In this document: piece by piece, positions 67-22,562 of the stretch
Numbering within the stretch: the stretch's first letter is position 1
Layout: every line of letters begins with the position of its first letter
Origin: a virus
DNA: 22,562 bases
Virus record (IMG/VR): IMGVR_UViG_3300050821_016329
Coordinates: 1-22,562 of that record
Direction: 5' to 3' (one strand)
Made by a program: the position numbers and the translations under genes
The notes under the pieces: generated by a model
Seen by the model: only the letters and a program-made list of their open reading frames with translations
Told to the model about the DNA's origin: nothing
Databases searched by the model: none

Positions 67-239
67 TCAGTAGATGTCCGTCTGCGCGGCAGCCATGGCA
101 GCTTCGACTTCCGGGTCGATGTCGACCGTATCGGCGGCTTCACCAGCTTTTGCCTCCTTCTTCTCCTGGACGGTGAACTCTAATGCTCTGACGATCTCGG
201 AGAAGTTCTCGGGCGTCAGCTCGAACTTGGTAAGCTTTT
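67..239 (-). other. -1-frame C-terminal extension of the ATPase (frameshift)
   Basis: Starting in the A5 run (T5 at 236-240 on the plus strand), the -1 frame encodes about 56 residues: KLTKFELTPENFSEIVRALE, then a Lys/Glu/Ala-rich tail to TGA at 69-67. One extra A in the run would join it to the ATPase as VIKKLTKFELTPE. It has no start codon of its own. The next gene starts 5 bp after its stop, which suggests the long form is the ancestral end. It is either a homopolymer indel (real or assembly) or -1 slippage at A AAA AGC. That is not a classical X XXY YYZ heptamer, so an indel is slightly favoured. Confidence 0.6.
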
Positions 240-1025
240 TATTACCGTCTTTGCTTCGTCAGGCGTCTTGGGCGAATGACCGAGCATCTTGAGGAGCCGG
301 AAGATCTTGATCTTATTCTCCTCGGTCTCCCGATCGACGCCGCCATCGTTCCAGGCGAGGAGCTCTTCTCCGATCTTTGTGGAGAGCTTGAACGGGTCCT
401 CATCAATGAAGAGTTTGGTGCGGTCTTTGGATGCGATGGCCATGTGGCTGTCGCGGTCGATGTTGAAGGCGACGGTGAGCTCGTATTCGAAGCCTTCACG
501 CTGAATGTCTTTCATGCCGATCTTCTTCACCTTGCCGCCTTCCTGGACGGTTTCGGTCTTGCTGCGTGCTGCCGTGATGACGTGGCATTTGGAGGAGACA
601 ATGGCTTCGATGAAGCGTTGGTGGCGAGGGGTGGTCTCGCTCCATGCGCTCCAGGTGTTGCCTTTAAACTTCGTCTTGGCGATCATGTCATTGATCTCGA
701 GACAACCGCCTTTGCCGTCCCACTCGTGGGTGACGGAATCTATGATGATGGCATCCATCCCGGCATCTTCGCCGGCTTTGATCGCTTCGATGTAGCGCTC
801 TGGGCTATACGGCGCCTGGAGCGTGATGACGTTGTAATCGCCCAGATCCGAGTAGAGCTCGCCGGAACCGTTCTCGGTATCGATGAGCAGTATCTTCTCC
901 CAACTCGTGGAGAGTCCGCGAGCGATGAGAAGCGCGGAGTACGTCTTACCGGAACCGGATGGTCCGGAGAGGCCGACGCGCAGCTTCGCCTTCGCGCGTT
1001 GGGCTTTCCTGATTTCTAAACTCAT
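216..1025 (-). CDS. RecA/Sak4-like AAA ATPase (phage recombination/single-strand annealing type)
   Basis: This 269-aa protein is a phage P-loop ATPase of the AAA_24/Sak4-like class, which acts in phage DNA recombination, probably with a single-stranded-DNA-binding protein. Walker A is GPSGSGKT at residues 21-28. An acidic DTENGSG follows near 49, a Walker B-like strand (AIIIDSVTHEW) near 92-102, and a sensor-type strand (HVITAARSK) near 148-156. It is the third ORF of the operon starting at P1, after an 18-aa and a 69-aa ORF, and ATG is preceded by T. The reading frame ends at TGA 218-216, but the -1 frame continues cleanly from the A5 run at 240-236 to a stop at 69-67, so the natural product may be about 50 residues longer. 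The P-loop ATPase call is solid; the exact pathway is family inference. Confidence 0.85.
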   Translation of the reverse strand: MSLEIRKAQRAKAKLRVGLSGPSGSGKTYSALLIARGLSTSWEKILLIDTENGSGELYSDLGDYNVITLQAPYSPERYIEAIKAGEDAGMDAIIIDSVTHEWDGKGGCLEINDMIAKTKFKGNTWSAWSETTPRHQRFIEAIVSSKCHVITAARSKTETVQEGGKVKKIGMKDIQREGFEYELTVAFNIDRDSHMAIASKDRTKLFIDEDPFKLSTKIGEELLAWNDGGVDRETEENKIKIFRLLKMLGHSPKTPDEAKTVIKSLPSSS

Positions 1026-1062: not shown

Positions 1063-1272
1063 TTACGCGGCGAGTACGGGCACTTTCACTACTGGAGTGA
1101 GCGTCGTGTGCGGGGTTGGTCCATTCACTCCACCGTAGCGATGGAATTGGAGCAACGCCGCGAGAATCTGCGTGGTCTGGATGGGTACCCAGTTGCAGAA
1201 GACTTCGTTATGGACATGCCCGCGGAGTTCTTCGGTGATCTCCTCCCGGCTCATGTTTTCGATCTGAGGCAT
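1063..1272 (-). CDS. small hypothetical early protein (69 aa)
   Basis: This 69-aa protein starts MPQIENMSREEITEELRGHV and includes VFCNWVPIQTTQILAALLQFHRYGG. It has an amphipathic acidic N-terminus and no clear membrane segment or known motif. It starts 2 bp after the stop of the 18-aa ORF and ends 37 bp before the ATPase gene, so it belongs to the P1 operon. It is the only supported minus-strand start in the window with C rather than T before ATG, and it lacks a Shine-Dalgarno sequence, so translation is probably coupled to the ORF before it. Function unknown. Confidence 0.6.
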   Translation of the reverse strand: MPQIENMSREEITEELRGHVHNEVFCNWVPIQTTQILAALLQFHRYGGVNGPTPHTTLTPVVKVPVLAA

Positions 1273-1274
1273 GG

Positions 1275-1331
1275 TTAAAAGCGTTTTTGATTATTACGGC
1301 GCTTGGCGACCGCTACTGCCCGACCTTTCAT
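1275..1331 (-). CDS. 18-aa basic leader ORF at start of P1 operon
   Basis: The ATG at 1331-1329 opens 18 codons encoding a Lys/Arg-rich peptide (MKGRAVAVAKRRNNQKRF), stopping 2 bp before the next gene. The ATG lies 8 nt downstream of the P1 -10 (TATACT), so the message would start at or just before it and be leaderless. P2 and P3 have the same geometry, and T precedes the ATG. It could be a real micro-protein, a leader peptide needed for coupled translation of the 69-aa gene, or chance. Its position is better evidence than its sequence. Confidence 0.45.
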   Translation of the reverse strand: MKGRAVAVAKRRNNQKRF

Positions 1332-1339
1332 ATGACATC

Positions 1340-1362
1340 AGTATACATGTTCGTAGCGAACA
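1340..1362 (-). promoter_or_regulatory. P1: leaderless early promoter with palindromic operator
   Basis: The minus strand has -10 TATACT at 1345-1340, with the perfect inverted repeat TGTTCG-N3-CGAACA (1348-1362) 2 nt upstream. No good -35 lies at 16-18 nt, so it may need an activator or be intrinsically weak. The first ATG is 8 nt downstream of the -10. A repressor bound here would block polymerase. P2 and P3 carry the same site. Confidence 0.7.
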
Positions 1363-1378
1363 AGCGAGCAAGCCGGTA

Positions 1379-1387
1379 TGTGGATAA
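1379..1387 (-). promoter_or_regulatory. perfect-consensus DnaA box
   Basis: The minus strand reads TTATCCACA, the canonical 9-bp DnaA box, 17 bp upstream of the P1 operator. I found no second copy nearby, so an origin is not supported. It could tie early transcription to host DnaA or be a chance match. Confidence 0.35.
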
Positions 1388-1458
1388 CTTGTCGAGCCTA
1401 TAGAGCGCACCACAACCCTTCGATGGAGTTTGCGGGGAGCGCGTTTACCGTCTAAGCG

Positions 1459-1483
1459 CGGAGGACAGCGGAGTCGAACCGCT
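1459..1483 (-). other. tRNA 3'-end fragment (T-arm plus acceptor strand), possible att core
   Basis: On the minus strand 1483-1467 forms a canonical T-arm: AGCGG stem, TTCGACT loop, CCGCT stem, with the invariant G53-C61 closing pair. It is followed by a 7-nt acceptor-like strand GTCCTCC (1466-1460) and a discriminator G. No matching GGAGGAC, D-arm or anticodon arm lies upstream, so this is not a complete tRNA. A tRNA 3' fragment in a phage regulatory region is what an integrase attachment core looks like. No integrase gene is in the window, so the att role is inference. Confidence 0.45.
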
Positions 1484-1611
1484 GGGATGTTGCGCGCGAT
1501 GTGAATTGTTCGGATGTGGAAGCAAAAAATGTCCCGTGCTCAGATATTCACCAGCGGCCATTGTCTTGGGGCTCGCTTCCCCAATGATGCGCTCGATAGG
1601 ATTGACAAAGA

Positions 1612-1830
1612 TCAGCGCGCCAGATGCCGGAACGCTCTGCGCATTGCTCTGGGACAGTCGCGCGGAATCGCGCCGGAGAAGCGTATCTTCTCGCGCCAGT
1701 AGATCTTGTGAGCAGTGGAGACGCTCTTGAGCTTCACGGCTGCGGCGGCTTCGCGTAGCGTCATCCCGCCATCGACGAGCTCGAGGAGGTGTGTGTTGCG
1801 CTTGGTCTTTGTGTTCGCCGGAGAGGACAT
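1612..1830 (-). CDS. small helix-turn-helix DNA-binding protein, candidate repressor
   Basis: This 72-aa basic protein has a helix-turn-helix at about residues 17-45: HLLELVDGGMTLREAAAAVK then LKSVSTAHKIYWREK, matching the pattern of small site-specific binding domains (resolvase- or repressor-type). An Arg-rich tail follows. It is made from its own promoter P2, whose -10 ends 6 nt before the ATG, so the mRNA should be leaderless. P2 contains an operator one arm-mismatch away from that of the early promoter P1. A small HTH gene whose promoter shares an operator with the early operon is a natural candidate for an autoregulated phage repressor. Direct binding is inference. The HTH call rests on sequence pattern only. 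Confidence 0.65.
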   Translation of the reverse strand: MSSPANTKTKRNTHLLELVDGGMTLREAAAAVKLKSVSTAHKIYWREKIRFSGAIPRDCPRAMRRAFRHLAR

Positions 1831-1836
1831 ACGAAA

Positions 1837-1864
1837 AGTGTAGCAAGTCCGCTACGAACAGCAA
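1837..1864 (-). promoter_or_regulatory. P2: leaderless promoter of the HTH gene, with operator
   Basis: The minus strand has -35 TTGCTG (1864-1859), a 16-nt spacer, then -10 TACACT (1842-1837), ending 6 nt before the ATG at 1830. The operator TGTTCGTAGCGGACT (1860-1846) overlaps the -35 and fills most of the spacer. It differs from the perfect P1 palindrome by two bases in one arm, one of them in the 11-bp core. Confidence 0.72.
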
Positions 1865-3047: not shown

Positions 3048-4091
3048 TTAGGGTGAGTAGGACAGGTACAGACCGGACGAGTAGCATACCCACTGATTTA
3101 TCTTTCCGGCTTTGACGTATTGGCACATGAGGCGCACGGCTTTCTCCGGATCGTGTACGGCTTGGTCCGGTGAGATCTCGGTGCCGTGATAGTGGTCATT
3201 CCATTGGCAGATCCCGTAGTCGGTGCTGACGACTTTGCCATCGTAGAGATTGGGATGGATGGTCGCGGGGTGATAACCGCTCTCGCAATGGACTACCTTC
3301 GACATGATGTACTTCTGACCGGCCGTGAGGCCTTCCTCATCGCATATGACGCGCAGTGAATGGCGCGCAGCTTCGGGTGTGCTCCAGTCATAGGAAGGTT
3401 GGGGAGCTATTGGCGGAGGAGTTTGGGCCTGATCCGCGAAGCCGGATATGCGCTTCTTTTGGATGAGTGATAGCGCTTGGGCGGCTTGAAGAAGGAGGTG
3501 GGTTAATTGCCCGAGTATGAATGTCTGGCGGACACCGGAGAAGTCGAGATCCGTAAGGCAGTGTTGAGGGTTTGGATCGTCTGGAAAGAATGTGGGACTC
3601 TGCGGCGTGTTCGGGAAGTGCGCATGCGTATCGTCGCGCTTGCCGAGCATGGCATAAAAGACGTGTGCGAGCTCGTGGCACGCATAAAGGGTGAAGTAGT
3701 CGCCTGCATCCTTGCCATTGACGTAGAGGCGGTCATTCTCGGCTGCGGCGAATACGGTGGTCTCCCATGGCCCTACATTGTGCTGGGTCATGGTGCCTGC
3801 GGTGGTGACGACGCCTGCATGGTCTTCGGGAGTGACTACGAAAAGGACTATATCGGCGGTTAGCGCGTGGGGCGTCGATATATTCTGGTCGTACCAGTCA
3901 TAATCGACAATCGAGAGGGGTGAGAAGTCCGGATATTGCTTGAAAACTGGATGGAGTTGGGTGTGCTCGACGATGATCTGCAGGTCGCAGACGGGCGCGA
4001 AGAATTGGCGGATAGCTTCGACTTTGCTGCTGAAGGTCGCCCAGGGGATGTTATTGGCGATAATAGCGAGCCGAAACGAAACGGGAGGCAT
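3048..4091 (-). CDS. two-domain lysin: HExxH metallopeptidase-like plus lysozyme/SLT-like domain
   Basis: This 347-aa protein joins two enzyme-like parts. Residues about 75-165 include ACHELAHVFYAML, whose HELAH at 139-143 is an HExxH zinc site, with nearby HAH (156-158) as possible extra ligands. A Pro-rich linker covers about 223-232. Residues about 235-340 resemble a lysozyme/soluble lytic transglycosylase fold: VHCESGYHP puts a candidate catalytic Glu at 270, and STDYGICQWN (289-298) matches the SxGxxQ-type motif of that family. No signal peptide is obvious. With the holin-like gene downstream it forms a lysis cassette. The N-terminal part could instead act on host surface protein or be degenerate. 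The start carries AGGAG, but only 1 nt from ATG, and T at -1. Confidence 0.7.
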   Translation of the reverse strand: MPPVSFRLAIIANNIPWATFSSKVEAIRQFFAPVCDLQIIVEHTQLHPVFKQYPDFSPLSIVDYDWYDQNISTPHALTADIVLFVVTPEDHAGVVTTAGTMTQHNVGPWETTVFAAAENDRLYVNGKDAGDYFTLYACHELAHVFYAMLGKRDDTHAHFPNTPQSPTFFPDDPNPQHCLTDLDFSGVRQTFILGQLTHLLLQAAQALSLIQKKRISGFADQAQTPPPIAPQPSYDWSTPEAARHSLRVICDEEGLTAGQKYIMSKVVHCESGYHPATIHPNLYDGKVVSTDYGICQWNDHYHGTEISPDQAVHDPEKAVRLMCQYVKAGKINQWVCYSSGLYLSYSP

Positions 4092-11362: not shown

Positions 11363-11947
11363 TCAGGAAATCGTGTACTGGCAGCTCACAAACATGCTCT
11401 GGACGTTCGACTTCGTCCATCCGCCAGTAAGGACATGTGAGAAGAGACGCCCGGTGTTGGCGCTCGCAGTGCCGTCGATGAAATTCCCAAATTCGTTGTA
11501 TGTGCCGTTTGTGTCGGTCGCGGCATAGAAGAAGTCGACGTAGGCGACGTTGTTGCCGTCGGTGGTATGGCTGGCGAAGAGTTTTCGATAGACTTCGGTG
11601 CCGAGCTGGGTGTCGCTGTTATTCGGTGCCGTGCTCGAGCTGCCGAGGGCGCCGTAGTTGATCTGGCCGCTATAGGTGGCGTCGCCAGTGAGGAGACGCG
11701 CGAGGACGTTGCGGCCGACCGTGGCTATGAGGTTGTGGGCGGAATAGTGGCTCTGGACAATGCCTACCGCGCGCAGATCCTCTAAGAGATGTGGCTGCCG
11801 AGTGCGCACACACTGGCGCAATGTCTCGAGGACGGGATGATCCTCGGTGATATGTGCAGGAAGATTGAAAAAGTCGAAATTGGCTCGGATGTGGACTTCG
11901 CCGACGATCAGTCGTCTGAATGCGTATAAGAGGTCCAGGAGCCACAT
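11363..11947 (-). CDS. phage tail/baseplate-associated protein (194 aa)
   Basis: Residues about 1-60 are helical (WLLDLLYAFRRLIVGEVHIR). From about 70 comes HNLIATVGRNVLARLLTGDA and NYGALGSSSTAPNNSDTQLG, a pattern I recognise from phage tail-tip and fibre-associated proteins. C-terminal strands follow. It sits between the tail hub and the adhesin, so a tail-tip role is likely. A TATAAT hexamer (11961-11956) lies 8 nt before the ATG, the spacing of the leaderless promoters, but no -35 accompanies it. T precedes the ATG. Confidence 0.6.
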   Translation of the reverse strand: MWLLDLLYAFRRLIVGEVHIRANFDFFNLPAHITEDHPVLETLRQCVRTRQPHLLEDLRAVGIVQSHYSAHNLIATVGRNVLARLLTGDATYSGQINYGALGSSSTAPNNSDTQLGTEVYRKLFASHTTDGNNVAYVDFFYAATDTNGTYNEFGNFIDGTASANTGRLFSHVLTGGWTKSNVQSMFVSCQYTIS

Positions 11948-11963
11948 ATACGGGCATTATAGC

Positions 11964-13472
11964 CTAGTAAATATCGGCGGGTGTTCTGTCCACGTTGATA
12001 ACTCGTTTGGTATCGGAGACGCTCGAGGGCGGGTATGGTCCGAGCACCCATATAGGGCTTACGCCAGCGCCGAGAGGGTCCTTCGCGATATTGGTCTCGG
12101 TGATCGTGACGGTCGCAGCATCGGTATGGTCGGGGGCGGTTCTCTCTGAGATGCTCTCGGTAATGGTTACCGTCGCCAAGTCGACCTTGATGATCTCGCT
12201 CACCTCGTTGGGGTCTATCGGCAGTGCGGCTGGCGTGAGGAGCGATTGCAGTATCTCGGTGAGCGTGAAGGTCTTTACGGTGACGAGTTCGACCGTATAG
12301 ATAAATGTATCGGGTGTACGCGGCGCAAAGGTGACAGCGCGGATTATGTAATCAGTATTCACGCCGCGGCGCGCGCTATTGATGTTGATGGTCTGCCCGG
12401 TACGCAGTCCCGCGACGTAGGTGTCGAACTGGCCGCCCTGGAGTGGGTCTTTATAGGCGGTGAGCTCTGCGACGGCGCGCTGACGGGCGACGTTCAAATC
12501 CGTGATGCTGCTATCCTCGATGAGCTTTTCACGGACGCCGTAGCTGGTGATGCTCGGACTATCTGAGGCAATAGCGAGTACCGGAATGAGCGGCGTGCCG
12601 CTGAATGCGATGGCATCTCCATCATTGAGTGCGGAATTGACCTGTATGGATTGGTCGGCATCGCGATAGAGCACGTCTTTCGTAGCGAAAGTGTCCTGGC
12701 CGTAGATGCCGACGCTCTTGCTGACGCTATTTATGGCGATCGTGAGCGTCGTGACGTCGAACTTGTAAGGAAGTACCCAGCTTTTGGTTACGGAGCCCTT
12801 GACGGTAATGGTGTCGCTGAAGGTGCTGCCCTGGTATGTGCCGCCGCGGACTTTCACCTGATTGGCGAGCTGCGTGCCGTCCATCGTCGTCTGAAGACTG
12901 TTGTTGACGTAGTTGCCGCTCGTGTCGGTGAGATTGAACGGCGATAGTTCGGTGTATTTGGGGAAGAAATGAATGTCTTTATCCGGGTCGACGTACCAGT
13001 CATATTGCACCAAGTCGGCGAGCTTCTTTATAGCTTGTGAGATGGGGACCTGATTGAAGACAATGCTGGCGACATTGAATGTGCACGTCGTGTTGATGTC
13101 AGTGAAGCCAGTCGCGAAATTCGCTACGAAGTCGTCGATTATCTGTTTGATGGTCTGGTTCGTGTACGCTTGCGAGACGAGCTCGCTGTCGAGGTCAATA
13201 GAGTAGTCGACGCAACTAAGCTTGTATATGATGCCGTCCTTCGGATTGAAACTATCTTGCTCGATGGTGGCAATCCTGCCACCGAATATCTTAGTGCTGC
13301 CGTCTTGTATGAGCACTGTGTCGAGCACGGCCGGCGTGTAGCTCTTCGCGCCGTACTTTTTATAGTAGAGGGTCGCGGTGTCGCGCTGTGCTCCGATTAT
13401 TTGCTGCACCTGGAAGCCGTTCTGGTCGATGTCGCTGGTGTGGTCAGAGCCTCCGAGCGTTACCGTGATCAT
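11964..13472 (-). CDS. tail hub / tail-associated baseplate protein (Tal/gp44-like)
   Basis: This 502-aa protein starts MITVTLGGSDHTSDID and shows the hub-type layout. An N-terminal barrel part includes DTVLIQDGSTKIFGGRIATI. It is followed by TIKQIIDDFVANFATGF and SQAIKKLADLVQYDWYVDPD (about 157-176), a hallmark of tail-hub proteins, then a receptor-tip-like half. The C-terminus repeats ATVTITES/ETN. The ATG overlaps the tape-measure TGA (ATGA, 13472-13469), and this position fits a hub that closes the tail tube. Two exact operator cores, 12679-12689 and 13120-13130, lie inside the gene. No lysozyme or peptidase motif is obvious, so a structural role is most likely. Confidence 0.75.
   Translation of the reverse strand: MITVTLGGSDHTSDIDQNGFQVQQIIGAQRDTATLYYKKYGAKSYTPAVLDTVLIQDGSTKIFGGRIATIEQDSFNPKDGIIYKLSCVDYSIDLDSELVSQAYTNQTIKQIIDDFVANFATGFTDINTTCTFNVASIVFNQVPISQAIKKLADLVQYDWYVDPDKDIHFFPKYTELSPFNLTDTSGNYVNNSLQTTMDGTQLANQVKVRGGTYQGSTFSDTITVKGSVTKSWVLPYKFDVTTLTIAINSVSKSVGIYGQDTFATKDVLYRDADQSIQVNSALNDGDAIAFSGTPLIPVLAIASDSPSITSYGVREKLIEDSSITDLNVARQRAVAELTAYKDPLQGGQFDTYVAGLRTGQTININSARRGVNTDYIIRAVTFAPRTPDTFIYTVELVTVKTFTLTEILQSLLTPAALPIDPNEVSEIIKVDLATVTITESISERTAPDHTDAATVTITETNIAKDPLGAGVSPIWVLGPYPPSSVSDTKRVINVDRTPADIY
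12679..12689. promoter_or_regulatory. intragenic operator core (site 4)
   Basis: TTCGTAGCGAA, exactly the 11-bp core of the P1 operator, with palindromic flanks CTT...AAG. It lies in the tail hub gene with no -10 beside it. Confidence 0.5.
13120..13130. promoter_or_regulatory. intragenic operator core (site 5)
   Basis: TTCGCTACGAA, the reverse-oriented exact core, within the tail hub gene. No promoter hexamer is adjacent. Confidence 0.45.
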
Positions 13473-15106
13473 ACTGCGATGCGGGTGTTAAGGCGGAGTG
13501 ACTTAACGATTTCGTCGCTCACGGCTTTGGCGATGCCGCGTACGTCGAGCTGGCTCGATATCGTATTGCCGGTGATGCTTATATTGATATTCGTGCCGAG
13601 GCCGCCGGATTGTCCGAGCGTGATTACGGCTTCAGGGCCAGCTTCGCCGACTAATGCAAGCGTTGGTCCGGTTACGATGCCGCCTTCGGCAAGATGCGGC
13701 ACAATAGCATGGATGCCAGAGGAGACTGCGCTGCCTACTGAGCTTGCTGCACCGCCGATGGCGCTCTTTGCGGAGTTGACGGCATTGATGATGTTGTTCA
13801 CGACGCCCATGACGGTAGTCCAGAGGCCGTTCACGAGACCCGTTATGTAGTCAATCGCGGTTTTTATCGTGCTGGTGATGGCGTCCCAGACGACTTGGGT
13901 TCCGAGCTGAATGTCTTTCCAATGGGTGAGGACGATGTAGGCCAAAGCGCCGACCAGGACGCCAAGGGCGATGAGCGGTAGGCTCAAGGCGGCTACAGCT
14001 GCAGCTAGGGCGCCGATGACTGTTATAGCGACCGTGAAAGCGCTTGTGGCAAGAGATACGGCAGTAGCGAGTGCGGCTATGATCAGAAGAAATGCTCCGA
14101 CTGCGGCTGCAGTACCGAGAATAGCGGTCGTGAGTTTCGGATGGGCAGCGGTCCAGTCTGCAAAAGCTTGTATCGCTGGAGTGACCGTCTCCAATATTTT
14201 CGACAGAGCTGGAAGTAGCGAAGCACCTAGTGTCTCAGCGAGTAGGCCGAGTTTAGCTTGCGCGACATCGAGCTGACCCCATGGCGTATTCACGTAATCC
14301 TTCGCGGAGTTGGCGAGCTTTACTTGCAACTCGTCTAGAGCTTCAGCGGGTGTGAGACCGTCTTTGAGATTTATGCCGAACTGCTTGAGAGCGCGACCAT
14401 TACCTTCCATAGCCTGGACGATGAGTGTGCCCGCGGTGGCCAAATCTATACCTTTGGCCCGCGCAAGGTCCATTGCCTCCTGGTTTGCTTTTAGAGATTC
14501 GCTCGCATCGCCAGTTGCACGAAATAGGGTCGTCAGACTTTTTACTGTATCGTCGTTAGCAAATCCGTAGTCGACGCCCGCGCGAGCTGCGTCTTCGAAC
14601 TTTCGCATTATTTCTTCTGTGTTCTGCGTGGCGAGCTTTTGCTCGTTGTTGAGCGTCTCGAGTTTGTCGCGTAGTCCGGAGACCTTTTGCTGTAGTGTAT
14701 CTACCGATGCGGCCATCGCGCCGCTCGTGTCTTTGCCAGCGGCAATCTTGTCGTTGTAATCTTTTATCTTTCCGGTTGCGGCTTCGAGCTGAGATTGCAG
14801 GAGTGCTTTCTGTTTGGTGAGTAAATCTGTGGCACCTGTATCGTCTTGGGCAGCTGCAATGCCGGCTCGTATGGCCGTAGAGAGTTGCATGTCCGCGGTT
14901 GCACTGTCAGCAGCCTGCTTTACCAGGACGCCAAGGCCGCCAACTATCGCGCCTCCCATCAGCGCGAAGGTGTTGCGGACTTCGTTGGCTTGATCGTGAA
15001 TTTCGTCGAGGCTTTTTGTGAGCGACGAAGTGGCGGATTGAAACTGGGCACTCGCCTGGTCTACGAGCTGGAGGACGATGGAAAGTGTGGAACTTGAGCC
15101 GCCCAT
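13469..15106 (-). CDS. tail tape measure protein
   Basis: This 545-aa protein sets tail length. By the usual rule of about 0.15 nm per residue this gives a tail near 80 nm, which is an estimate. The N-terminus is helical (LVDQASAQFQSATSSLTKSL). Coiled coils lie about 85-165. A long hydrophobic core is about 325-390 (ILGTAAAVGAFLLIIAALAT onward), followed by an amphipathic region and the common tape-measure tail AEGGIVTGPTLALVGEAGPE. It starts 6 bp after the stop of the frameshift extension of the chaperone, the canonical position. T precedes the ATG. Confidence 0.9.
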   Translation of the reverse strand: MGGSSSTLSIVLQLVDQASAQFQSATSSLTKSLDEIHDQANEVRNTFALMGGAIVGGLGVLVKQAADSATADMQLSTAIRAGIAAAQDDTGATDLLTKQKALLQSQLEAATGKIKDYNDKIAAGKDTSGAMAASVDTLQQKVSGLRDKLETLNNEQKLATQNTEEIMRKFEDAARAGVDYGFANDDTVKSLTTLFRATGDASESLKANQEAMDLARAKGIDLATAGTLIVQAMEGNGRALKQFGINLKDGLTPAEALDELQVKLANSAKDYVNTPWGQLDVAQAKLGLLAETLGASLLPALSKILETVTPAIQAFADWTAAHPKLTTAILGTAAAVGAFLLIIAALATAVSLATSAFTVAITVIGALAAAVAALSLPLIALGVLVGALAYIVLTHWKDIQLGTQVVWDAITSTIKTAIDYITGLVNGLWTTVMGVVNNIINAVNSAKSAIGGAASSVGSAVSSGIHAIVPHLAEGGIVTGPTLALVGEAGPEAVITLGQSGGLGTNINISITGNTISSQLDVRGIAKAVSDEIVKSLRLNTRIAV

Positions 15107-15112
15107 ATAGGG

Positions 15113-15636
15113 CTATTGTACCTTACGGTCGGCATGGGTTGCTTCAGCTCGCATTAGCTCCATGAGGATAAATAGAAATTCGTGAGGCTGCGCCATGTAT
15201 TCCTCGTATGTCCAAGACATCTCGCGGCAGATGAGCGCGATGCGTTGGATGGGCCATTCGAGTGCGCCGATTGTGAAGTAGCGTTTCCACGCCGCCCTTA
15301 CTTCGTCGGCTTCGTAGGGTTTTGGATTTTGTTCACCTCTTCGACGACTGCATCGTACTCGCTGGATGGTAGGTCGAGGAGTTTGTCGACGGGGTCTTTG
15401 GTCTCTCCATCGATCGAGACTACGAGATAGGAAAGTGCTCGCTTCTCTTGCTCTAAGATAAAGGAGCCGGACATTCCTTCGACGGCAATCTTGCCGGACT
15501 GAGCGTCCTGCATGTCTGCTTTAAGAGCAGAGAACATGAGCGACTTTATTTCGTTTGCCTCACGTCCGGTGAGATATGTGCGAAGTACGATCTTGCGGCC
15601 TGCGGGTGTGGTTATTTCTTTGGTCTCGCGTTCCAT
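15113..15636 (-). CDS. tail assembly chaperone frameshift product (gpGT-like, -1 fusion)
   Basis: The chaperone frame contains the slippery heptamer A AAC CCT (15322-15316), a perfect X XXY YYZ pattern. A -1 slip there replaces the last five residues with 67 new ones starting YEADEVRAAWKRYFTIGALE and ending before TAG 15115-15113, giving about 174 aa. The extension holds MSWTYEEYMAQPHEFLFILM, typical of gpT-type ends. In lambda-like phages the G and GT proteins coat the tape measure during tail assembly. Chaperone, extension and tape measure are in the conserved order. Y=C heptamers are less common than Y=A, so efficiency may be low. Confidence 0.8.
15298..15636 (-). CDS. tail assembly chaperone (gpG-like, 112 aa)
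   Basis: The unshifted product: MERETKEITTPAGRKIVLRT, YLTGREANEIKSLMFSALKA, then a charged helical C-terminus ending NKIQNPTKPTK. The opening 'I..PAGRKIVLRTYLTGREANEI' is the usual start of tail assembly chaperones. It begins 1 bp after the stop of the 48-aa membrane protein, with T before ATG, and is followed by the frameshift extension and the tape measure. It probably wraps the tape measure so that tube protein can polymerise around it. Confidence 0.85.
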   Translation of the reverse strand: MERETKEITTPAGRKIVLRTYLTGREANEIKSLMFSALKADMQDAQSGKIAVEGMSGSFILEQEKRALSYLVVSIDGETKDPVDKLLDLPSSEYDAVVEEVNKIQNPTKPTK

Positions 15637-15637
15637 A

Positions 15638-15784
15638 CTAAATGATTTTGTCGAGCTTGGTTTGTAAGTCGACCTCTAGTTGTCGCCTGCGTTTTTGTTC
15701 CGCAATACGCCCGGCTGCGGCCAGTGCGACAACGAAAGCAACTATCCAAAATAATGGTCCCGCAGTGGCGAGTTCATGTAGCAT
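15638..15784 (-). CDS. 48-aa membrane protein under its own operator-controlled promoter
   Basis: One hydrophobic helix (PLFWIVAFVVALAAAG, about 10-25) is followed by a basic stretch EQKRRRQ and a charged amphipathic tail. A longer frame begins with TTG at 15820, but that TTG is the -35 of promoter P3. The ATG at 15784 lies 8 nt below the P3 -10 and has T at -1, so I take it as the start. It ends 1 bp before the chaperone ATG. A membrane protein under a repressor-type promoter inside a tail operon is the pattern of a lysogenic conversion or exclusion gene. That role is inference. Confidence 0.6.
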   Translation of the reverse strand: MLHELATAGPLFWIVAFVVALAAAGRIAEQKRRRQLEVDLQTKLDKII

Positions 15785-15792
15785 ATGCGTGA

Positions 15793-15820
15793 AGTGTACG
15801 TTCGCTACGAATATCGTCAA
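15793..15820 (-). promoter_or_regulatory. P3: leaderless promoter with operator inside the tail operon
   Basis: The minus strand has -35 TTGACG (15820-15815), a 16-nt spacer, then -10 TACACT (15798-15793), 8 nt before the ATG at 15784. The operator TATTCGTAGCGAACG (15813-15799) fills the spacer and ends at the -10. Spacer length and -10 are identical to P2. Confidence 0.75.
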
Positions 15821-15937: not shown

Positions 15938-16402
15938 TCAACATCTCTTATTTATGAGAGCTTCGACTTTGTCCTTAACGTCGTCGATTTTGGCAGGAAT
16001 GCCAGTGAGTTTTTCCGCGCGTGCTCGAGAAACGTCAATATCTTTTTCAATGCCGTCTCGATTCGAAGTTGCAACACCCTCTCTATTAGCCTTGTCTCTT
16101 AATTCAGTTTGTAACTTTCTTTCGTAATCAAGATTACGCCTCCATTCACTACTTTCCGTTTCTAACGCTTGTGTCAAAGGTGTGATCGCATCTCGTAATG
16201 TCTGACAGTTGGTCGGGATACGCAGACCAATGGTCTTTATTTCAACTTCGCGACCGTTTTGCATGGCGGCGGTGATTGATATTGTTACCGTGTAAATGAA
16301 CCAAGCGGTGATAAAGAAAAGAGCAGGGATGATGACAAAGAGGATGATGACTCGCGCCCAACTCGGAACAGCGCCTAATGCCTTTCCAAAAAAAGTCCAC
16401 AT
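15938..16402 (-). CDS. membrane-anchored coiled-coil protein (154 aa)
   Basis: An N-terminal hydrophobic helix (VIILFVIIPALFFITAWFIY, about 19-40) anchors an otherwise soluble protein with a long charged, helical C-terminal half (QALETESSEWRRNLDYERKL onward), including a cysteine near 65 and a terminal Cys. Such layouts occur in spanin-like, exclusion and sensor proteins; I recognise no family. It is unusual between tail tube and tail chaperone genes, and the DNA looks more AT-rich than its neighbours. TTGACG (16459-16454), 18 nt, TAGTTA (16435-16430) is a possible private promoter. The start has T at -1 and a weak GGAATGGA upstream. Confidence 0.6.
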   Translation of the reverse strand: MWTFFGKALGAVPSWARVIILFVIIPALFFITAWFIYTVTISITAAMQNGREVEIKTIGLRIPTNCQTLRDAITPLTQALETESSEWRRNLDYERKLQTELRDKANREGVATSNRDGIEKDIDVSRARAEKLTGIPAKIDDVKDKVEALINKRC

Positions 16403-16527: not shown

Positions 16528-17736
16528 TCAATAACCGTTCTGTGTATTCGTGAGGGTCGTCTTAAGCATGTAGCTGTCAGAAGTGCTATAGCTGCCTTTG
16601 AATTTGATGGTCTGATATACGAGGTCGCCTACCTTAAACGGACGGCCGAGTTCCGTGATCGTGCACTTCGGAATGTTGAATTGGAGCTCCGGGTTTGTCG
16701 TGCTGCCGATCGTGACATCAGTGTTCTTTAGGTCAATGAGTATCGCCAGCGGATATGGTGCGCCTCCAGTCGATCCGAGGAACTGGTCCTTGAAGTCGCT
16801 GTTGTTCTGCCAGATGCATTCGAGCGTTCCGTCGACGGCGAAGTCCTTATTCAGAAAGTCAGCGGGGCTATTATTGCCCAGCGTATCCTGGTCTTCGACG
16901 TTAGCGTTTATGGTGAGCTTCGCGCTTTTGAGCGGAATGGCGACTGGTGTGAAAGTCTGCGTACCGATGGCGCCGGTCGTTGCCTGGGAAAGGTCGTAGG
17001 CGGTCGCTGACACGATCTTGGCGATAGTGGTGTTCGCCGGAATGTTCGTGCCGGTAACGCCCATGCCGACTTTGAGGTTCGTTTGCGGATTTATGCTGCA
17101 CGCGGTGACGTGCACCGTGCTTGCGGCGGTGCCAGTGGCGGTGAGTGTGCCAGCGAGGCCAGCGGAGTTGAGTGCGAACTTGACTGTTGCGAACTGACAG
17201 ACGAAGCGATTGTCTGCGGTTGTAGCCGGTGTGAATGTGCTTTGCGCAACTCCAGTGAGTGCTTTAATGCTGGCGACAAATTCGACGAACTTCTTGAGCG
17301 CGATGTTTATCTCGAGTTTTTCGACGACGCCATTTGCGTATGAATAGTCCTGACCTGAAAGCGGATCATGTAGGAAAAATGTGAGCGACTGATGCTGAGC
17401 ACTCTCGGCAACATTGAAGATATTGTCGTAGACGATGCTCTCGCCTGAGTGGGTGCTATGCGAAGTTAGCGTGCCGAAGATAGCATAGAGGAATAGACCA
17501 AAGGATTGGTCCATGACGTTGCCCGTGATGGTACCCTGCGCCCATCGCTTCGTATTGGTGAGGCCTACATTGTCCTCAATGACACCGTACGCCTGTTCGT
17601 CGGTAGCGAACTCTTTCTTCTCGTCGAGTGATAGATCCATCCACGGGTTCCAGAACGCTGCGGACGATATCGCGGTTCCGCGAGTGGTTTCTTTTGCTAC
17701 GCCTATCTGAATTAGTCGCCCAATGCCTTTGGCCAT
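16528..17736 (-). CDS. major tail tube protein
   Basis: A 402-aa protein beginning MAKGIGRLIQIGVAKETTRG, the familiar opening of siphovirus tube subunits, with AAFWNPWMDLSLDEKKEFAT next. Tube subunits are usually smaller. Here residues about 191-266 look like an inserted beta domain (TGTAASTVHV ... VGMGVTGTNIPANTTIAKI ... QATTGAIGTQTFTPV), after which the core resumes with KLTINANVEDQDTLGNNSPA. A similar module is inserted in the head-tail connector. The gene follows the 66-aa gene by 7 bp, with ATAT before ATG. The product forms the tail tube rings. Confidence 0.85.
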   Translation of the reverse strand: MAKGIGRLIQIGVAKETTRGTAISSAAFWNPWMDLSLDEKKEFATDEQAYGVIEDNVGLTNTKRWAQGTITGNVMDQSFGLFLYAIFGTLTSHSTHSGESIVYDNIFNVAESAQHQSLTFFLHDPLSGQDYSYANGVVEKLEINIALKKFVEFVASIKALTGVAQSTFTPATTADNRFVCQFATVKFALNSAGLAGTLTATGTAASTVHVTACSINPQTNLKVGMGVTGTNIPANTTIAKIVSATAYDLSQATTGAIGTQTFTPVAIPLKSAKLTINANVEDQDTLGNNSPADFLNKDFAVDGTLECIWQNNSDFKDQFLGSTGGAPYPLAILIDLKNTDVTIGSTTNPELQFNIPKCTITELGRPFKVGDLVYQTIKFKGSYSTSDSYMLKTTLTNTQNGY

Positions 17737-17743
17737 ATATGCA

Positions 17744-17944
17744 TCATTCTACCTTGCTTTCTAGATCAGGTTTTGCGGGTGCTGTGGATTTCTTTCTGAG
17801 CTCGGCATACTGAGCCTGCGCGTCTTCCATGCTGTCGGCATAAATTGTCATTGCCGCGAAGTCCGCGTCGCCCGCGAAGAAGTACGCTTGCTTTATAGGA
17901 GTGTTGCCGACCATCTTGTTCTTGGGATTGTTTTCGGTGGCCAT
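17744..17944 (-). CDS. small hypothetical tail-module protein (66 aa)
   Basis: This soluble, charged 66-aa protein (MATENNPKNKMVGNTPIKQA, then YFFAGDADFAAMTIYADSME) has strands followed by a helix and a Lys/Pro-rich tail. It lies 29 bp after the tail completion gene and 7 bp before the tube gene, with T before ATG. Small proteins in this slot are common in siphoviruses, but no family is recognised. Confidence 0.65.
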   Translation of the reverse strand: MATENNPKNKMVGNTPIKQAYFFAGDADFAAMTIYADSMEDAQAQYAELRKKSTAPAKPDLESKVE

Positions 17945-19959: not shown

Positions 19960-19963
19960 ATTG

Positions 19964-20007
19964 CGAGGTTATGCCCTCGTCGCTGCCTCTACGGGTACGC
20001 AGAGGCA
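19964..20007 (-). other. two hairpins ahead of the connector start codon
   Basis: CGAGG/CCTCG (19964-19968 with 19975-19979) closes a 6-nt loop 4 nt upstream of the ATG. TGCCTCT/AGAGGCA (19984-19990 with 20001-20007) extends inward to a tetraloop. Both form in minus-strand RNA. They could control translation of the connector relative to the decoration protein. Confidence 0.5.
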
Positions 20008-20023
20008 AAGCGAAGGCCGAATA

Positions 20024-20539: not shown

Positions 20540-20545
20540 ATGAAT

Positions 20546-20560
20546 TGTGGTTGTGCCACA
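20546..20560 (-). other. small hairpin before the decoration-like gene start
   Basis: TGTGG (20546-20550) pairs with CCACA (20556-20560) around a 5-nt loop, ending 6 nt before the ATG at 20539. The hairpin before the connector ATG occupies the same relative position. Confidence 0.4.
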
Positions 20561-20605
20561 TTGCCGACCGTCGACACGGTGGCTGCGGCGGGTATACCGC
20601 GTGGC

Positions 20606-21122: not shown

Positions 21123-22367
21123 TCAAGACGCTGAAGTCTTTGCGACTACCATCGCGCGAGGAAGGGCCAAAGTCATAGCGTGGCGGTGCTTGTACACGAT
21201 GCCGCGCTGGTCTGACAATGCGATTTCCTTTCCTCCGAAGCTGCCGCTCTCGAACTGAGCAACGCGCATCTCACCCTTATCACCGAAGGCAAAAGCCTTC
21301 ATGTTACCGAAGATGAGGAATGCGTTAGATGCAGCATCCGAGAAGCCGTTGACGCTCGAAGCGCCCACAGCCGGGAGCCATCTGTTGGTGTAGACCGGAT
21401 AGCCGAGGATTTCTCCTGCAGGCTTGATCGGTCCGCCACCTGGGTGGTTCTCCATGGCAGGGTCAGGTTTGGCCCATCCTGCGTAAGGCAAGATGTAGTT
21501 ACCAGCCGTGTCCTTCTGCGTGCGGAGTTTCGCCCAGACGGTGCGGTTCATGTAGAACGCTGCGCCGTCCAAGAGGCTTTCTTCCATGTCACCGATCATC
21601 ACGGACGAGTCGTCAAGTACGTTGTACTTGGCGAAAGTCGTTGAACCTGTAGCAAGGACGTACGAACTGACTTTTAGGCCAGTTTCGTCGATGGTTGTTG
21701 TTGAAGGCTGATTCAGTACGCCGAGGAACGGGTCGCCGGTGTTAGCGCCGCCAATGAAGCCCTGATAGTCGATCATGTTCGCGAGAGCTTCACCGCCGAG
21801 GGCGAGAAGCCAGTCCGCAACGTTGACCGAGGCGTCTGCGAGCAAGTCGTTACCGACTACGAACGCGAGCTGCCACTTCTTGACGATGAGCTGAGCTTGG
21901 CCGAAGGTGAGACCTGTTACAGGGCCCGGTGCGTCTACGCCGAGATATGCTCCCTTGAGGAAGCTTCCGGTGTAGTTAGGCACAGCAAGTTCATCTGTAG
22001 ACATCTCCCATTTGGCTGCCTGGCTCAAAATCGTACCGACGGATGCCGCAATACGCATGATTGCGTCCGCGACTTCGCGTGATACGAGGTAGCCTCCACG
22101 GTTATCCTGCTCTTCGATGAGTGCTTCGTTGGCCTTTTCGCTGACATTAAAGCCTATGGCGCGGCGGACAGTGTCGACGAAAAGTGATTTAGACTTCTTG
22201 TCGAGACCGGTCATATCGCGGCCGAAGACCTTGCGCTGTTCGCGAAGGGTTTCAACGATTTTTGCTGATTCAGAGAGAACACGGCTTTCAATGAAAGGCG
22301 TGAGCTTCTCCTGCATGACCTCATCGAAGGCGACACCAATGGTCTCCTTCAATTGAGTTTTATCCAT
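21123..22367 (-). CDS. HK97-type major capsid protein with N-terminal delta domain
   Basis: A 414-aa protein starting MDKTQLKETIGVAFDEVMQE. Residues about 1-80 are helical, like the HK97 delta (scaffold) domain that is removed during maturation. The fold then begins with EEQDNRGGYLVSREVADAIM and VGTILSQAAKWEMSTDELAV, standard for the family. Later come QAQLIVKKWQLAFVVGNDLL and the C-terminal VYTNRWLP and FGDKGEMRVAQFES. A longer upstream frame was rejected: it overlaps the previous gene, whereas this ATG has CAAT before it and lies 13 bp after the previous stop. It builds the icosahedral head. Confidence 0.93.
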   Translation of the reverse strand: MDKTQLKETIGVAFDEVMQEKLTPFIESRVLSESAKIVETLREQRKVFGRDMTGLDKKSKSLFVDTVRRAIGFNVSEKANEALIEEQDNRGGYLVSREVADAIMRIAASVGTILSQAAKWEMSTDELAVPNYTGSFLKGAYLGVDAPGPVTGLTFGQAQLIVKKWQLAFVVGNDLLADASVNVADWLLALGGEALANMIDYQGFIGGANTGDPFLGVLNQPSTTTIDETGLKVSSYVLATGSTTFAKYNVLDDSSVMIGDMEESLLDGAAFYMNRTVWAKLRTQKDTAGNYILPYAGWAKPDPAMENHPGGGPIKPAGEILGYPVYTNRWLPAVGASSVNGFSDAASNAFLIFGNMKAFAFGDKGEMRVAQFESGSFGGKEIALSDQRGIVYKHRHAMTLALPRAMVVAKTSAS

Positions 22368-22380
22368 ATTGAATGTTGGA

Positions 22381-22562
22381 TTACTTTTTCGCTGCGGTCT
22401 TGCGTATCTCGAGATTAAGTTTTCCGAGACCGCTGCGTGCCGCAGCTTCAATACCGCGTAGGATTTCCCGGCCGAGCATGTGAGCTTCTAGGTCATCATT
22501 GGCGGGAGATGGAACGCGTGGTCTCGACCTTGTGATGCGAGGGACATCGCCAGCTGTAGAGC
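22381..22562 (-). CDS. 3' end of the gene upstream of the capsid (protease or portal C-terminus)
   Basis: The last 60 codons of a gene entering from the right edge encode VPRITRSRPRVPSPANDD, then LEAHMLGREILRGIEAAARS and GLGKLNLEIRKTAAKK, ending at TAA 22383-22381. In HK97-like phages the gene before the capsid is normally the prohead protease, or a portal in other orders. The visible part is a basic, partly helical tail with no active site, so I cannot choose. It ends 13 bp before the capsid ATG. Confidence 0.6.
   Translation of the reverse strand, partial: STAGDVPRITRSRPRVPSPANDDLEAHMLGREILRGIEAAARSGLGKLNLEIRKTAAKK

Follow-up and report, generated by a model that had tools for sequence, protein, structure and literature searches.

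What kind of element is a short palindrome that recurs beside minus-strand -10 hexamers in a virus sequence, and which protein would recognize it? This question is raised by the record IMGVR_UViG_3300050821_016329, a linear virus sequence of 22,562 nt; the whole of this stretch is referred to here as the window. A preliminary description had proposed a repeated promoter-operator unit (P1, P2 and P3), with one repressor acting on leaderless transcripts.

Origin of the sequence

The record represents part of a tailed phage genome. The window encodes a major capsid protein (21123-22451), a tail tube protein (Phage_tube_2), a tail fibre with an S74 chaperone and, in a gene of 545 aa, a probable tape-measure protein; its low-coordinate end contains an early cluster including an AAA_24/Sak4-like ATPase. 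Longer related records reach 37-53 kb, and a large share of the phage genome is probably absent from the record. Adjacent unassigned genes for 347 and 94 aa are probably lysis genes. The 347-aa protein (3048-4091) has no Pfam match; it contains HELAH, a metallopeptidase-like motif, resembles a lysozyme/transglycosylase in a C-terminal stretch, and adjoins the small 94-aa membrane protein. The two are probably endolysin and holin.

Relatives of the capsid protein were found, at 49-85% identity, in 26 metagenomic loci that form one group; there is one additional distant locus. A scan of 84,980 bacterial and archaeal genomes returned just two relatives (56% identity), both in metagenome-assembled genomes (MAGs) of Patescibacteria. 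One of these is located mid-way in a 263-kb contig and is therefore apparently a prophage. Since the only capsid relatives found in sequenced genomes occur in Patescibacteria, the host of the phage is probably also a member of these ultra-small bacteria; this sequence-based assignment stops at the level of a Patescibacterium.

A repeated 11-base element at three promoters

The elements of the three units and the genes that they precede are as follows.

1348-1362: operator copy O1, TGTTCGTAGCGAACA, a perfect 15-bp palindrome, 2 nt upstream of the P1 -10
1340-1345, minus strand: P1 -10 hexamer TATACT, 8 nt from the ATG at 1329-1331
1275-1331, minus strand: ORF of 18 codons at the start of P1, MKGRAVAVAKRRNNQKRF; 2 nt separate its end from the ATG of the 69-aa ORF
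1063-1272, minus strand: 69-aa early protein, homologous to a 45-aa ORF beside the ATPase in the related record G012
216-1025, minus strand: AAA_24/Sak4-like ATPase (phrog_1366), downstream of P1
1846-1860, minus strand: operator copy O2, TGTTCGTAGCGGACT, two palindrome mismatches, within the P2 core promoter and 3 nt from its -10
1837-1842, minus strand: P2 -10 hexamer TACACT, 6 nt before the ATG of the HTH gene
1859-1864, minus strand: P2 -35-like hexamer TTGCTG, 16-nt spacer
1612-1830, minus strand: 72-aa protein with a predicted three-helix HTH fold, the candidate repressor
15799-15813, minus strand: operator copy O3, TATTCGTAGCGAACG, two palindrome mismatches, in the P3 spacer and 0 nt from its -10
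15793-15798, minus strand: P3 -10 hexamer TACACT, 8 nt before the ATG
15815-15820, minus strand: P3 -35 hexamer TTGACG, 16-nt spacer
15638-15784, minus strand: 48-aa one-helix membrane protein at P3, ending 1 nt before the next gene
15298-15636, minus strand: conserved tail gene (112 aa), which transcription from P3 should enter

All sites, -10 hexamers and spacers of the preliminary description were recovered where it had placed them; a recognizable -35 is missing at P1. Its formula for the site, TGTTCG-N3-CGAACA, leaves the spacer free. The sites instead share the 11-base core TTCGTAGCGAA, of which the middle is fixed: all four TTCGNNNCGAA words in the window carry the identical spacer TAG, or CTA on the opposite strand. 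These four words compare with 0.54 expected, and none of 100 shuffles reached four. The exact 11-mer TTCGTAGCGAA occurs four times, against 0.017 expected under an order-2 Markov model; a fifth copy differs by one base.

Three of the five copies lie within 25 nt upstream of leaderless-type promoters. There are nine such promoters in the window, covering 0.6% of positions, and the binomial probability of this association is 2e-6, a value slightly flattered by the inclusion of TACACT, the hexamer of P2 and P3, in the list of -10 sequences. The search of the window also uncovered, beyond the three sites already described, two exact copies inside the tail gene 11964-13472, remote from any promoter:

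12679-12689, plus strand: exact 11-mer
13120-13130, minus strand: exact 11-mer

Synonymous-codon shuffles of the coding DNA predict 0.07 copies and a probability of 0.001 for two or more. The copy at 12679 was also considered as a conserved site, but it is not kept in G017, the nearest relative of that gene.

The three promoter copies abut the -10 hexamers at a distance of 0-3 nt and, in P2 and P3, fill the spacer to the -35; a bound protein would therefore exclude RNA polymerase. Such a placement is that of operators for steric repression of the core promoter. It upholds the earlier view of the three copies as operators, and as far as sequence can tell, the promoter position supports this reading well. 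We infer from it the following mode of repression. A repressor dimer on the site would cover the stretch between -35 and -10 and block RNA polymerase. At P1 this would switch off the 18-aa ORF, the 69-aa protein and the ATPase; at P2 it would switch off the HTH gene itself, which would constitute negative autoregulation; and at P3 it would affect the 48-aa membrane protein together with the tail gene that follows. The membrane protein had been proposed as the target of P3. The 48-aa gene does lie at this promoter, but it is not the sole target: it ends 1 nt before the conserved tail gene, and P3 is therefore internal to the structural operon.

Some further features were noted around the three units. 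A single perfect DnaA box, TTATCCACA, is located at 1379-1387 on the minus strand, 16 nt from O1, and the related record G013 also has a DnaA box within its cluster of small HTH gene and ATPase. The minus strand at 1459-1483, AGCGGTTCGACTCCGCTGTCCTCCG, resembles a tRNA's T-arm and 3' acceptor half, with the 5' half missing. ARAGORN and Rfam were both negative for a whole tRNA gene, and no match with up to two mismatches was found in 380 genomes of the Patescibacteria phylum; the sequence is possibly the attachment-site core of a temperate phage. Just upstream of P2 is a strong hairpin, AAAGGCCGG...CCGGCCTTT (1876-1904; -23 kcal/mol, z -6.5), which is probably a bidirectional terminator insulating P2. 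A hairpin at P2 itself was rejected as a terminator, being no better than shuffles (z -0.6). Near P3, a 154-aa membrane protein (15938-16402) lies with the 48-aa protein between the tail tube gene and the 112-aa gene; neither the 48-aa nor the 154-aa gene was found in relatives, and the latter looks like a moron-like insertion.

The candidate repressor

The targets include the gene of a predicted DNA-binding protein, and the location of P2 at this 72-aa gene is the geometry of autoregulation. An AlphaFold model from single-sequence input shows a confident three-helix HTH with a pLDDT of 85.7. Among known structures the model comes closest to HTH DNA-binding domains, but no match is significant. 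The protein matches the 53-aa HTH protein of G013 weakly (36% identity over 36 residues, pairwise E 9e-4); beyond this, no relatives were found in IMG/VR, PDB, phages or Pfam. A link between the operator sites and the 72-aa protein is plausible, and we infer from the predicted fold and the gene arrangement that this protein is plausibly the most likely repressor. The earlier assignment of all three promoters to this protein thus draws support from the HTH model and from small HTH genes that recur next to the ATPase in relatives. As the identification of a single repressor it does not fully stand, because another regulator could bind and much of the genome is probably missing.

Two relatives carry different repeats at the same place

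The 11-mer was searched for in 17 related phage records, as the preliminary description had suggested, and occurs in none of them. The exact pattern of operator, -10 and ATG was likewise found nowhere else in 2.9 million viral contigs. The site itself therefore has no phylogenetic footprint. The gene neighbourhood is nevertheless partly shared. A scan with a single ATPase sequence found nothing, but an alignment query returned 80 loci, among which only L137 was informative. Three relatives have a small HTH gene as neighbour of the same AAA ATPase:

G013: 53 aa
G012: 47 aa, HTH_38 with E 4e-8
L137: 69 aa, HTH by inspection

These HTH proteins differ strongly from the window protein. The 69-aa early protein and the 45-aa ORF of G012 share 36% identity (pairwise E 8e-7).

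Two of the relatives have repeats of their own in this cluster. The whole G013 record has three copies of GTTGGGGGT, all within 190 bp at the HTH/ATPase cluster. One separates TTGACA from TAATAT in the promoter of the HTH gene itself, and another separates TTGACT from TATAAT in the promoter that follows. G012 has two copies of GCGGACGCGTGGG, both upstream of the operon and none elsewhere; one of them is located between TTGCAT and TACAGT. A different repeat in each relative would fit a separate repressor-operator pair in each phage; this is only suggestive, because local repeats of similar size, unrelated to these, are also present elsewhere in the G012 and G013 records. Palindromic words repeated as in the window, with a comparable excess at promoters, were not found in the relatives. 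The preliminary description had held that conservation of the genes without the sites would count against it. Taken at face value this is the situation for the ATPase and the 69-aa protein, but the relatives carry other repeats at the same promoters, which is what joint change of operator and repressor would be expected to produce.

A separate motif is conserved in many relatives. The intergenic regions 19960-20023 and 20540-20605, before the 369-aa and 171-aa genes, have a GGCACAA-like sequence and short inverted repeats in common, a possible RNA processing or regulatory element.

Predicted leaderless starts in the phage, its relatives and Patescibacteria

Under the rule of our script, a Shine-Dalgarno sequence precedes none of the 20-21 starts predicted in the window. 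Besides P1-P3, the genes at 11363-11947, 13469-15106, 16528-17736 and 17744-17944 also have a TATAAT-like hexamer, 6-9 nt ahead of their ATG, and T immediately precedes the ATG in 81% of starts. We analyzed related phages (336 starts), Patescibacteria fragments from about 40 genomes (564 starts) and an E. coli control (137 starts) with the same simple gene-calling script. Because every long ORF was simply taken to start at its first ATG, the percentages carry noise and are probably underestimates.

A Shine-Dalgarno sequence precedes 8% of the starts in related phages (5% of internal ATGs), 13% in Patescibacteria (8%) and 43% in E. coli (4%). A hexamer from a list of TATAAT-like -10 sequences is found at positions -17 to -12 before 11.9% of phage starts vs 0.5% of internal ATGs; in the Patescibacteria fragments the values are 14.9% and 1.9%, with a sharp peak exactly at -12, and in E. 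coli 1.5% and 0.8%. Thus -10 hexamers 6-11 nt before the ATG are strongly enriched in related phages and sampled Patescibacteria, but not in E. coli. T at -1 occurs in 56% of phage starts (10% of internal ATGs), 48% of Patescibacteria starts (29%) and 28% of E. coli starts (24%); this pattern suggests initiation at UAUG without Shine-Dalgarno.

With a -10 at -12, transcription would usually start on the A of the ATG, and P2 fits this exactly; for P1 and P3, leaders of about 2 nt would be predicted. RNA from the three promoters would then start at the AUG or about 2 nt before it, so that ribosomes would begin without a Shine-Dalgarno, as is apparently common in this phage lineage and its hosts. 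The proposal that P1-P3 produce leaderless transcripts therefore finds support, with either no leader or one of 2 nt, but the property is not special to these units: it extends over the whole phage, its relatives and the sampled Patescibacteria, and is apparently widespread among Patescibacteria hosts.

Which explanation fits the element

We consider it fairly probable that the 11-bp element, which in O1 forms a 15-bp palindrome, serves as operator for a single repressor encoded by the phage, most likely the 72-aa HTH protein, acting at the leaderless promoters P1-P3. Several observations speak against this: the 11-mer is absent in relatives, two exact copies are in a coding gene, P1 has no -35 and the 72-aa protein is nearly without relatives. 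The first of these would also agree with chance, i.e. with a short functionless word that recurs in 22.6 kb, but four copies against 0.017 expected and the promoter association (P 2e-6) make this very improbable. A different role, such as binding of a replication or partition protein, with the promoter location being secondary, would account for the two of five copies inside a gene and for the perfect DnaA box near O1. The position of three of the five against -10 hexamers argues against it, and the copies are few and scattered rather than iterated as at origins or partition sites; we regard this role as improbable.

It is a weightier though still unlikely alternative that the sites are operators of another regulator and that the 72-aa gene is only one target. 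This regulator would be either a CI-like repressor whose gene lies in the part of the genome absent from the record, or a host protein such as LexA. The record is a linear fragment of 22.6 kb compared with 37-53 kb in longer related records, and TGTTCG...CGAACA presumably resembles the LexA-type boxes of some phyla. On the other hand, TTCGTAGCGAA is absent from two genomes of the host phylum, neither of which is shown to be the host of this phage, and the different repeats at the small-HTH promoters of two relatives fit better with a phage-encoded partner. The operator set is real, probably functional and of an ordinary kind, in a phage group about which little is known.

The interesting part is the leaderless signal at the level of the phylum, not the operator. 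Patescibacteria and their phages may, as a phylum, largely use leaderless, non-Shine-Dalgarno initiation at (U)AUG, with the repressor circuit of this phage sitting on such promoters and operator, promoter and first codon contained within about 40 bp; we find the case for this general statement evenly balanced. Because few Patescibacteria have been cultured, next to nothing has been explored of how they regulate genes and initiate translation. If their start codons often lie at the 5' end of the RNA, start-codon prediction, promoter annotation and expression tools should change radiation-wide. The phage sites offer a compact set of promoters with operators, amenable to testing in E. coli.

Comparison with known systems

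The element is like LexA/SOS boxes in being a palindrome of GTTC/GAAC-type half-sites, but unlike them it has a fixed 3-bp spacer. The Gram-positive LexA box is CGAAC-N4-GTTCG, and the phage element has its half-sites in the opposite order; no LexA gene was recognized in the window. The closer parallel is with phage repressor-operator circuits that follow a CI/Cro-type logic or use small HTH repressors. As in these, a repeated specific site overlaps core promoter elements, the palindromic operators include one at the promoter of the small-HTH gene, and two related phages have repeats of a different sequence. Unlike in such circuits, each promoter has just one operator, whose asymmetric spacer is fixed, one copy is in a late structural operon, and the protein has no significant match to a known repressor family.

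The start signals resemble the TANNNT motif, by which leaderless genes of Deinococcus-Thermus and Actinobacteria are known to be marked (PMC3160421, PMC12340547). A supplementary figure of PMC12340547 reports a motif scan across bacteria, phylum by phylum. A partial literature search found no paper describing the signature in Patescibacteria. The resemblance lies in a -10 about 12 nt upstream of the start, above background, and in the absence of a Shine-Dalgarno sequence. Compared with those leaderless genes, the signal reported here belongs to Patescibacteria and their phages and is accompanied by a strong excess of T at -1.
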